Of a stretch of 64,000 nucleotides of DNA, positions 10,404 to 15,263 are shown piece by piece (the stretch's first letter is position 1; each line of letters opens with the position of its first letter). The notes beneath the pieces were generated by a model. It was given only the letters and a program-made list of their open reading frames with translations. It had not been told where the DNA came from and did no database searches. Origin of the DNA: Parasulfuritortus cantonensis (lineage in GTDB: Bacteria > Pseudomonadota > Gammaproteobacteria > Burkholderiales > Thiobacillaceae); NCBI RefSeq assembly GCF_004337445.1, contig NZ_SJZB01000049.1, forward strand, positions 1-64,000, in the 5' to 3' direction. Both the position numbers and the translations under genes were made by a program.

Positions 10404-11090
10404 ATGACGCAATACATGATCGCCCCCTCCATCCTGTCCGCCAACTTCGCCAAACTGGGCGAGGAAGTCGACAACGTCCTGGCTGCCGGTGCCGACATCG
10501 TCCACTTCGACGTGATGGACAACCACTACGTGCCCAACCTGACCATCGGGCCGCTGGTCTGCGAGGCCCTGCGCAAGCACGGCGTCACCGCCCCGATCGA
10601 CTGCCACCTGATGGTCAAGCCGGTGGACCGCATCATCCCCGATTTCGCCAAGGCCGGCGCCAGCTACATCACCTTCCATCCGGAAGCCTCCGAGCACATC
10701 GACCGCACCATCGGCCTGATCAAGGAAAGCGGCTGCAAGGCCGGCCTGGTGTTCAACCCGGCCACCCCGCTCGACGTGCTGGAATACACCCTGCCCAAGC
10801 TGGACATGGTCCTGCTGATGTCGGTCAACCCCGGCTTCGGCGGCCAGAAGTTCATCCCCTACGTGCTCGACAAGGCCAGGAAGGTGCGCGCCATGATCGA
10901 CGCCGGCGGTTATGACTGCCGCCTGGAGATCGACGGCGGCGTCGGCCCGGCCAACATCGCCGAGGTCGCCCGTGCCGGCGTCGACACCTTCGTGGCCGGC
11001 TCCGCTGTGTTCGGCAAGTACAACGCCGACGACAAGAACAAGTACGACACCATCATCGGCGCCATGCGTGCCGAACTGGCCAAGGTCTGA
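10404..11090 (+). CDS. rpe: Ribulose-phosphate 3-epimerase
   Basis: Interconverts ribulose-5-P and xylulose-5-P in the pentose-phosphate and Calvin cycles. A 228-residue TIM barrel with [10 protein letters not shown] at the N-terminus, metal-binding H-F-D-V-M-D (residues about 34-39), D-C-H-L-M-V, and the phosphate loops N-P-G-F-G-G-Q and V-A-G-S-A-V-F. ATG 10404 opens the conserved N-terminus. It begins the rpe-gph-trp gene run. Confidence 0.95.
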
Positions 11091-11092
11091 AC

Positions 11093-11779
11093 GTGGTGGC
11101 GGGCACCCCCCTGGCGATCAAGGCGGTCGTCGTCGATCTCGACGGCACCCTGCTCGACACCGCGCCGGACCTGGCGGATGCCGCCATGGCCATGGCGGCC
11201 GACCTGGGCCTGCCCGAGATCGACCTGGCGACGGTGAAGACCTATATCGGCAACGGCGTCTCGCGCCTGGTCAAGCGGGTGCTGACGCGGCAGATGGAGG
11301 CCGAGCCGGACAAGGAACTGTTCGCTCGGGCCATGCCGATCTACGAGCGCCATTACGCCGAATGGGTATCGCGCAAGAGCCGGCCGTTCCCGGGGGTGGT
11401 CGACGGCCTGCAGGCCTTCAAGGCGATGGGTTTGCACGTCGCCTGCATCACCAACAAGGCCGAGCGGTTCACCGTACCGCTCCTGCAGGACACCGAGCTG
11501 TATCCGTTTTTCGAACTGATCCTGTCGGGCGACACCCTGCCCGAACGCAAGCCGTCGCCGTTGCCTTTGCTGCATGCCTGCCAGTACTTCGGCGTCGAGC
11601 CGGGCGAGCTGTTGTTGATCGGCGACTCGCTCAACGACGCCCAGGCCGCGCGTGCCGCGGGCTGTCCGGTCTTCTGCGTTCCGTACGGTTACAATCGGGG
11701 CCGTCCGGTGGCAGAATTGGACCTCGATGCGGTGGTGCCCAGCCTCACCGAAGCCTCTAAATTGGTCGTGAAGAAATGA
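11093..11779 (+). CDS. gph: Phosphoglycolate phosphatase (HAD superfamily)
   Basis: Dephosphorylates 2-phosphoglycolate. HAD motif I D-L-D-G-T-L-L-D-T-A-P-D near residues 15-26, motif II T-N-K, motif III Lys in R-K-P-S-P, motif IV G-D-S-L-N-D. 228 residues. The GTG start is 2 bp after the rpe stop; the rpe-gph-trpE order is classic in proteobacteria. Its stop codon overlaps, by four bases (ATGA), the start of a candidate trp leader peptide. Confidence 0.92.
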   Translation: MVAGTPLAIKAVVVDLDGTLLDTAPDLADAAMAMAADLGLPEIDLATVKTYIGNGVSRLVKRVLTRQMEAEPDKELFARAMPIYERHYAEWVSRKSRPFPGVVDGLQAFKAMGLHVACITNKAERFTVPLLQDTELYPFFELILSGDTLPERKPSPLPLLHACQYFGVEPGELLLIGDSLNDAQAARAAGCPVFCVPYGYNRGRPVAELDLDAVVPSLTEASKLVVKK

Positions 11780-11838
11780 ACTCAGTCTCCCTGAAAACCG
11801 GAAAAGTGAGCCGCCCGGCGTGGCGATGGCGTTGCTGA
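11776..11838 (+). CDS. trpL: Candidate trp operon leader peptide (20 codons, W-R-W)
   Basis: A short ORF opens with ATG 11776, overlapping the gph stop as ATGA, with a purine-rich GTGAAG a few bases before it. It encodes 20 residues ending S-R-P-A-W-R-W-R-C and stops at 11836-11838, 54 bp before the trpE start. Two Trp codons one residue apart near the C-terminus of a tiny ORF directly before trpE are what ribosome-mediated attenuation needs. Coupling to gph would load ribosomes on it. A terminator/antiterminator pair is not obvious by eye, which lowers confidence. An internal GTG at 11806 could give a 10-residue version. Confidence 0.6.
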   Translation: MNSVSLKTGKVSRPAWRWRC

Positions 11839-11883
11839 GCCATATCCCCGCGTTGCGCACGACTCAGGTAATCCGTTTTTCAG
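11791..11883 (+). promoter_or_regulatory. Long-range inverted repeat enclosing the Trp codons before trpE
   Basis: CTGAAAACCGG (11791-11801) can pair with CCGTTTTTCAG (11873-11883) at 10 of 11 positions, closing a loop that holds the Trp codons and leader stop. The 3' arm contains the T-run and abuts the trpE ribosome binding site (AGAGAG). A smaller 5-bp hairpin, ATGGC/GCCAT, lies inside. These could be the alternative structures of an attenuator or a translational switch; the fold is inferred by eye. Confidence 0.35.
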
Positions 11884-11892
11884 AGAGCGACC

Positions 11893-13367
11893 ATGACCGA
11901 ACAGGAATTCATCGATTTCGCCCGCCAGGGCTATAACCGTATCCCCGTCTACCGGCAATTCCCGGCCGACCTGGACACGCCCCTGTCCATCTATCTCAAG
12001 CTGGCCAACCAGCCCTACACCTACCTGCTCGAATCGGTGGTGGGGGGCGAGCGTTTCGGCCGCTATTCCTTCATCGGCCTGCCCGCCCGCACCGTCGTGC
12101 GCGTGCGCGGCCACTTCGTCAGCGTCGAGACCGACGGGCTGCCGGTCGAGCAGAGCGACCAGGCTGATCCGCTCGCCTTCGTCGAGTCCTTCCTGGGCCG
12201 TTACGAGGCGGCGCCGTTGCCCGGCCTGCCGCGCTTCCCGGGCGGCCTGTGCGGCTACTTCGGCTATGACACGGTGCGCTACATCGAGAAGCGCCTGGCC
12301 GCCGTGGTCAAGCCGGACGTGCTCGGTACGCCCGACATCCTGCTCATGCTCACCGACGAACTGGCGGTGGTCGACAACCTGTCGGGCCGCCTGACCCTGA
12401 TCGTCTTCGCCGACCCGTTGCAGGACGATGCCTACGCCAAGGCCCAACTGCGTCTGGCCGAATTGGCGAAGCATCTGTCGCGCGCGGTGACGCCCCCAAG
12501 GACGAGCCGGGCGAGGTCGTCGAGGCGCAGTCGGAGTTCGGCAAGGAGGCGTACAAGCAGGCGGTCGAGAAGGCCAAGCGCTACATCCGCGATGGCGACA
12601 TCATGCAGGTCGTGCCCTCGCAACGCATGAGCCGGCCGTTCAACGCCCATCCGCTCACCCTGTACCGGGCCCTGCGCGGGCTCAACCCGTCGCCCTACAT
12701 GTTCTATTACGACATGGGCAACTTCCAGGTGGTCGGCGCCTCGCCGGAGATATTGACCCGCCTGGAGGGCGACATGGTCACCGTGCGGCCCATCGCCGGC
12801 ACGCGTCCGCGCGGCCGCACCCGCGAGGACGACCTTGCCCTCGAACGCGAGTTGCTGGCCGACCCCAAGGAACTGGCCGAACACCTGATGCTGGTCGATC
12901 TCGGCCGCAACGACGTCGGCCGGGTGGCGCAGACCGGTACGGTCAAGGTGACCGAAAAGATGGTCATCGAGCGTTACTCGCACGTCATGCACATCGTCTC
13001 CAACGTCGAGGGCCGGCTGCGCCCGGGCCAGACGGCCATGGACGTGCTGCGCGCCACCTTCCCGGCCGGGACCGTGTCGGGGGCGCCGAAGGTGCGGGCG
13101 ATGGAGATCATCGACGAGATCGAGCCGAGCAAGCGCGGCATCTACGCCGGCGCGGTCGGTTACCTGGGCTTCAACGGCGACATGGACCTGGCCATCGCCA
13201 TCCGTACCGCCGTGATCAAGGACAAGACGCTGTACGTGCAGTCGGGGGGAGGTCTGGTTGCCGATTCCGTGCCCGAGAACGAGTGGCAGGAGACGCAGAA
13301 CAAGGCGCGCGCGGTGTTGCGTGCCGCGGAATTGGCCCAAGCCGGATTCAGCGGCGAGACGGTCTGA
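11893..13367 (+). CDS. trpE: Anthranilate synthase component I (frameshifted)
   Basis: Converts chorismate plus ammonia to anthranilate; partner of TrpG. The N-terminal half carries the tryptophan feedback site L-L-E-S; the C-terminal half carries the chorismate-binding core ([25 protein letters not shown]). The frame breaks at the C5 run 12493-12497: the N-terminal frame reads V-T-P-P then nonsense, while the next frame resumes K-D-E-P-G-E. One added C restores a protein of about 491 residues. Tryptophan biosynthesis appears otherwise intact, so an assembly error is likely. Regulation probably combines feedback at L-L-E-S with the leader upstream. Confidence 0.92.
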
Positions 13368-14381: not shown

Positions 14382-15263
14382 GTGCCGGCTGGCCTCCGCC
14401 TCTCACTGTGCATCAGCACCTACAACTGGCCGGCGGCGCTCGACCTCGTGCTGGCGAGCGTCGCCCGCCAGACCGTCCTGCCGCGCGAGGTGATCGTCAC
14501 CGATGACGGTTCGGGGCCGGATACCGCGGCCCTGATCGCGCGTTGGCGGGCGCGGTTTCCGGTGCCGCTGGTACACGTCTGGCAGGCGGACACGGGCTTC
14601 CGCCTGGCGCGCGCCCGCAACCTCGCGGTGCTGGCGGCTACCGGCGATTACCTGGTCTTCCTGGATGGCGACATGGTGCTGCATCCGTGCTTCGTCGGGG
14701 ACCACAAGCGGGCCGCAGCCAGGGGAGCCTACGTTCAAGACGTGCGCGCGAAGGCCGGTAAGGGGTTGACCAGGCGCCTACTTGAACATCAGCTGCTCTG
14801 GCCCGGCTTCTTCGCGGCTGATATCAGGGGTAGACGCCATCTCCTCCATAGCCATCTGCTGAGCCACTACCGGCGCCAGGCCACGCGATCCCTGCAGAAC
14901 GTCACCGGCTCCAACATGGCGTTCTGGAAGGAAGACCTGCTCCGGGTGAACGGTTTCAACGAGGCCATGGAGGGCTGGGGCATGGAGGACAAGGAACTGG
15001 TGATCCGCCTGCGCAACAGCGGCTGCCGCGTCCGCCTGCTCAAATATGCCGGGATTGCCATGCATCTCTATCATCCCAGTCGGCGGGCACCGGAGGAGAG
15101 CAATCCGAACCGGTTCCACCTCGACAAGGCGAAGGCCGGTGCCACCTGGTGCGAGTTCGGCCTGGACCGCCATACCGGTGAGGACTTCCGCGTCGCAGAC
15201 GGGGCCGAACGGGGCGCGCGGGCGTCCGCCAACACTAGACAGGAAGCCGCGACATGCTGCTGA
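14382..15263 (+). CDS. Family 2 glycosyltransferase with galactosyltransferase-type C-terminus
   Basis: GT-A fold enzyme of 293 residues: the N-terminus [11 protein letters not shown] matches GT2, D-D-G-S-G binds nucleotide, the metal motif D-G-D is residues 95-97 (F-L-D-G-D-M), and G-W-G-M-E-D (198-203) is the hallmark of the Glyco_transf_7C region. GTG 14382 lies 3 bp after the previous gene, and its end overlaps trpG by 10 bp, so it is embedded in the trp transcription unit. The acceptor is unknown; surface polysaccharide or LPS glycosylation is likely by family. Confidence 0.82.

Follow-up and report, generated by a model that had tools for sequence, protein, structure and literature searches.

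A short open reading frame (ORF) with two Trp codons lies between gph and trpE of Parasulfuritortus cantonensis, and the question raised by this locus is how such a leader might place trpE under tryptophan control. For attenuation through transcription termination, control by tryptophan is the textbook example. The original prediction, made from the letters of the DNA, had instead suggested a switch that may act on translation. Here, the window (the whole analyzed stretch of 64,000 nt, contig NZ_SJZB01000049.1) was studied together with trpE upstream regions from related genomes. From sequence comparison and folding models, the trpL leader ORF probably acts as a Trp-responsive translational attenuator that controls translation of trpE. 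The parts of this reading differ in strength. A conserved Trp leader peptide at this locus is certain for practical purposes, and sequestration of the trpE ribosome-binding site by leader codons is strongly supported by sequence and models. Trp-responsive translational attenuation is likely, and gating of trpE by a queue of ribosomes is plausible on the basis of the models.

The leader ORF and its Trp codons

The features of the locus are listed in Table 1. The matches of rpe and gph both exceed curated NCBIfam cut-offs. The match of trpE to anthranilate synthase component I falls into two pieces, each below the cut-off, because the reading frame is broken in this assembly; it is split across ORFs 11893-12630 and 12603-13367, and relatives have a single open frame of ~500 codons. 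The break reflects a genuine frameshift or a mistake in the assembly. NCBIfam also identifies trpG-type and trpD neighbours, and no Trp-rich leader was noticed ahead of trpG in the window. The trpE and trpG genes are separated by an ORF of 293 codons (14382-15263) that extends over the trpG start (15254) and, by eye, looks like a glycosyltransferase.

Table 1. Coordinates of the genes, leader elements and RNA segments at the gph-trpE junction
Feature	Position	Strand	Remarks
rpe, ribulose-phosphate 3-epimerase	10404..11090	+	TIGR01163, 308.5 bits (cut-off 212.6); upstream, same direction
gph, phosphoglycolate phosphatase	11093..11779	+	NF009695, 288.2 bits (cut-off 225)
trpL leader ORF MNSVSLKTGKVSRPAWRWRC	11776..11838	+	20 codons; kept in relatives
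Sensor codons TGG-CGA-TGG (W-R-W)	11821..11829	+	Invariant in 7/7 genus members
trpE, anthranilate synthase component I	11893..13367	+	NCBIfam; frame broken in assembly
Segment A, leader codons 4-9, 5' arm of outer stem	11787..11802	+	Inverted repeat; mean pairing probability 0.84 with trpE -21..-6
Segment B, 5' side of inner hairpin, holds both Trp codons	11807..11830	+	MFE structure; weaker cross-species support (z -3.1, z -1.7)
Segment C, 3' side of inner hairpin	11839..11866	+	MFE structure
Segment D, 3' arm of outer stem, includes Shine-Dalgarno-like AGAGAG (11882-11887) of trpE	11872..11887	+	Inverted repeat, fold models

The predicted ORF of 20 codons on the gph stop, with W-R-W near its end, was borne out. 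Its ATG and the gph stop TGA (11777-11779) share bases in an ATGA arrangement, the Trp codons occupy 11821-11823 and 11827-11829 with CGA in between (11824-11826), and 54 nt separate the leader stop from the trpE ATG (11893).

For comparison, trpE upstream regions were taken from the family (matches in 108 of 117 genomes; 89 stretches used), from named contigs (80), and from samples of the order and the class (143 of 150 and 155 of 185 genomes matched; 115 stretches used). Leaders were recognized at 115 of 155 loci in the first set and at 73 of 115 in the second, and were absent or unrecognized at the other 40 and 42. Picking required RW, WR or SW near the end, the second set also allowing W-x-W or WW, and the start was set to the most upstream ATG within 32 codons, a rule under which some starts may be wrong. 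Excluded were one wrong stretch (L092), three loci with a mis-assigned leader, either the gph frame or a 3-codon ORF (L020, L056, L060), 14 duplicates, 5 of the 73 second-set leaders for spacing or length, and two places already in the set (L177, L178).

Since picking required W motifs, Trp counts from these lists are circular; the unbiased count is a chance test on the gph-trpE gaps of 155 distinct loci, 138 of which are at least 40 nt long (14 are shorter, and 3 loci have no identifiable gph stop). Short ORFs (8-35 codons) whose final nine residues include W[RQ]W were present in 47 of the 138 gaps, against a mean of 0.1 and a maximum of 2 in 50 shuffles. For an ORF bearing RW or WR the count was 109 of 138 (mean 4.1, maximum 12 in 50 shuffles). 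Conservation of the Trp codons, on which the original prediction had staked itself, thus holds: TGG-CGA-TGG is kept in all seven aligned members of the genus, and W-R-W leaders recur across beta- and gammaproteobacteria, including the gph-trpL-trpE loci of Marinobacter and Atopomonas. At seven loci (L018, L019, L021, L043, L047, L049, and L050), trpE follows directly after gph and leaves no room for a leader; the control seems to be lost in relatives where the two genes abut.

Pairing of the leader start with the trpE ribosome-binding site

The RNA of the window between 11760 and 11900 folds more stably than all 200 dinucleotide shuffles (z -3.49). An inverted repeat of 10 in 11 positions had been described around the Trp codons, ending at the trpE site. 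The repeat is present; it is longer than described and includes the ribosome-binding site (11787-11802 and 11872-11887; 16 nt, 14/16 pairs, 88% complementary, 69 nt between the arms). Within its own genome the window arm is unique apart from its partner and one match with two mismatches.

The pairing was examined across species by comparing the first 30 nt of each leader with positions -25..-1 of trpE, its own partner being set against permuted partners from other species among dissimilar leaders. For 45 dissimilar leaders, own pairs averaged -16.9 kcal/mol versus -9.6 kcal/mol with exchanged partners (z -14.5). A held-out set of 17 leaders, independent of the first, gave z -7.2, a value reached in 0 of 5,000 permutations, and all 62 together gave -16.7 versus -9.5 kcal/mol (z -17.7, 0 of 20,000). 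The signal persisted outside the family of the window (45 leaders, z -13.0). Arm sequences are wholly different between genera, and the pairing is nonetheless kept. As controls, the first 30 nt of the leader were set against the 25 nt after its stop (z -1.6) and against trpE +1..+25 (z -0.4). All other segment combinations were far weaker; at z -3.1, the end of the leader against the sequence following its stop came highest, ahead of the end of gph against the trpE site at z -2.9. The former pair, which corresponds to the inner hairpin B:C, reached only z -1.7 in the held-out set, and this hairpin is only moderately conserved.

In an initial swap test on 112 own pairs, only 40 ranked among the top 5% of their row and 48 among the top 5% of their column. 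This test was blurred by composition and by the similar arms of Thiobacillus, and was replaced by the tests on dissimilar representatives. Within the genus, 87.8% of the cells pair, and sliding the partner lowers this to 30-60%. Only 2 of the 14 pairs there have changed on both sides, and the covariation score was reached by 28 of 500 shuffles; the case for covariation therefore rests on the wide comparison. That the arms are mere dispersed repeats was considered and rejected: it is true for several Thiobacillus loci, but the window arm is unique and the pairing holds without such loci (57 leaders, z -14.3).

In 59 of the 62 loci, four or more nucleotides of trpE -14..-5 lie within the pairing, and the modelled accessibility of the ribosome-binding site in free RNA is below 0.5 in 56 of the 62. 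Shuffling leader nt 4-36 raised the mean accessibility from 0.26 to 0.36, the real sequence being the lower one at 43 of 62 loci. The idea of a switch at the level of translation gains support from this sequestration in the model, from the covariation of the pairing across species and from a window free of terminators.

Classical transcription attenuation, in which ribosome pausing at the Trp codons keeps an intrinsic terminator ahead of trpE from forming, as for E. coli trpL, has the most in its favor among the other explanations and is still unlikely. The Trp codons do lie within the 5' side of the inner hairpin in the MFE structure, and the title of Olekhnovich and Gussin 2001 reportedly names attenuation for trpE of P. 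putida. Neither of two scans supplied the terminator on the + strand, one finding none in 11000-12200 and the second scoring the window 0; an antiterminator would thus have nothing to compete with here. Rfam Trp_leader did not match the window either, where only four tRNAs attain gathering scores, and the strongest conserved pairing targets the ribosome-binding site, not a terminator. Sites resembling terminators (-8 kcal/mol or better) were detected in 21 of 62 relatives and in 15% of shuffles; given this excess, some species may use transcription attenuation as well. No sigma-70-like promoter was found in 11000-12200.

Less probable again is control by Rho or by mRNA decay, in which the mRNA would be shielded while the leader is translated and exposed once translation of the leader or of trpE is lost. 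Sequestered ribosome-binding sites often lead to Rho-dependent termination or decay. Such control alone leaves the covarying A:D pairing unexplained, and it could act downstream of translational attenuation.

The overlap with gph had been called unusual by the original prediction, which was not confirmed: 124 of 159 leaders begin at most 20 nt from the gph stop, and 53 have the identical 4-nt overlap. This proximity, together with the position of segment A at the leader start, would suit a plain coupling device, where the leader and A:D merely tie trpE expression to gph translation and the Trp codons sense nothing. We regard this as very improbable, as it gives no role to the conserved W-R-W and the excess of Trp codons. 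A nascent-peptide arrest sensor of free tryptophan similar to TnaC is hardly credible despite the conservation of W-R-W near the C-terminus, as the residues ahead of it are not conserved beyond the genus (by eye) and an arrest triggered by excess Trp would increase rather than reduce expression of a biosynthetic gene.

Models of the proposed ribosome gate

According to the translational attenuation proposed for trpL, leader codons 4-9 (A) would pair with the trpE ribosome-binding site (D) in resting mRNA and hide it, the inner hairpin B:C with the Trp codons closing the loop of the outer stem. Ribosomes would enter the leader from gph via the ATGA overlap. With ample Trp-tRNA, they would cross W-CGA-W fast and leave at the leader stop, so that A:D re-forms and trpE is switched off. 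With scarce Trp-tRNA, a ribosome would pause at the Trp codons, melt B:C and hold the following ribosome over A near the leader start, whereby A:D would be blocked and trpE translated. As an alternative to the queue, trpE might be kept open by a ribosome detained at the leader start during initiation.

A queue or a held initiating ribosome is proposed because the position of the arm follows the leader start and the modelled site of the window opens only with a paused plus a trailing ribosome. The pairing probability of the leader peaks at nt 7-21, and in the 47 strong loci of the 62 the start of the arm scatters with a standard deviation of 3.7 nt relative to the leader start versus 14.9 nt relative to the first Trp codon. 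The first Trp codon and the sequence downstream of it hardly pair with trpE -22..-1 (mean probability at most 0.06 over 62 loci). Assuming footprints of 30 nt, a paused ribosome would cover 23% of the arm on average over the 62 loci and a trailing one 63%; the paused ribosome would cover at least half of the arm in only 12 of them. For the window the same assumption leaves 0% of the arm beneath the paused ribosome and 100% beneath the trailing one. Its modelled accessibility, 0.20 for free RNA, stays at 0.20 when one paused ribosome is placed and reaches 0.57 once a trailing ribosome is added.

Over all loci the modelled gain is modest. Mean accessibility rose from 0.23 to 0.39 with both ribosomes in these crude folding models, and of the 56 closed loci 14 passed 0.5, compared to 3 with one paused ribosome. 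If pairing across the paused ribosome is disallowed, the mean becomes 0.43; a paused ribosome alone would then suffice, provided that pairing around it is impossible. We infer that Trp shortage causes the pause, that the pause opens A:D, and that this takes a queue, not just the paused ribosome.

The codon between the two Trp codons may add to the pause. Arg codons directly before a leader Trp codon are CGA in 153 of 191 cases, and in 72 of 80 within W-R-W. The codon accounts for 19 of 378 Arg codons at the start of trpE and for none of the 169 in eight genes of the window. A tRNA-Arg with anticodon ACG is encoded in the window, and in most bacteria the wobble-inosine tRNA-Arg is described as reading CGU, CGC, and CGA (PMC3711424). 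We read the CGA next to TGG as kept for slow decoding. The A of CGA has no special pairing in the fold (0.60). An overlapping ORF running from the ATG inside CGATGG to trpE was rejected as a candidate, being open in 12 of 43 independent loci compared to a fraction of 0.50 in shuffles.

A broader proposal can be put forward only tentatively. The locus might represent a widespread amino-acid-responsive translational attenuator with separate sensor and gate, the Trp codons lying in the loop and the leader start region serving as the gate. In that case a trailing or initiating ribosome, not the paused one, would hold trpE open, and W-CGA-W, with an Arg codon avoided elsewhere, would sharpen the pause.

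Relation to known attenuators

With E. coli trpL and Rfam Trp_leader (which we take to be RF00513) the locus has in common a short leader ORF with Trp codons before trpE and, as proposed here, ribosome pausing as the sensor. In contrast to E. coli trpL, the window has neither an intrinsic terminator nor an Rfam match, its conserved pairing aims at the trpE ribosome-binding site, and its leader begins on the stop of an unrelated gene. Attenuation of both trpE and trpGDC in P. putida was reportedly described by Olekhnovich and Gussin in 2001. As Marinobacter and Atopomonas, also gammaproteobacteria, carry gph-trpL-trpE with W-R-W, the P. putida leader is probably homologous, and the term used for that system is said to be attenuation.

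The erm and cat resistance genes are governed by translational attenuators, in which the ribosome-binding site lies in a stem and is freed by a paused ribosome. What the locus has in common with the erm and cat attenuators (PMC8274638) is that the 5' side of the stem around the target site belongs to the leader ORF. Here, the proposed signal is a shortage of Trp-tRNA instead of a drug, and with the assumed footprint the paused ribosome in the window does not cover the 5' arm, whereas the following one would. Among the literature examined, the closest analogue is the LEU element before actinobacterial leuA. As far as its description goes, Leu codons pair with the Shine-Dalgarno box, a pseudoknot was proposed, and its authors doubted that leader translation is the sensor (PMC1262725). 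At trpL it is the first codons that pair, and the sensor codons sit in the loop and barely pair (at most 0.06).

Searches of the openly accessible literature turned up no published description of a leader that controls trpE at translation in beta- or gammaproteobacteria. A prior mention of this leader in attenuator surveys is quite possible; that the translational reading and the conservation of CGA have already been described is less likely.

If translational control holds in many beta- and gammaproteobacteria, the textbook mechanism would share its sensor with at least one other solution, and ribosome queueing, if true, would serve regulation. Through the conserved CGA ahead of Trp codons, a connection of wobble decoding to amino-acid sensing could be tested directly. 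Furthermore, a regulatory stem may retain its function despite a complete change of sequence, and may even be rebuilt from dispersed repeats, as in Thiobacillus. In many Thiobacillus genomes, at L051, L054, L055, L058, L067, and other loci, the arms are built from dispersed inverted repeats with the RW codons kept, as though a mobile palindrome had been recruited to form the regulatory stem. A 16-mer of such a Thiobacillus arm, for example GGGGTCAGGATTCAGG, is absent from the genome of the window and occurs in 5 to 44 copies in six genomes.
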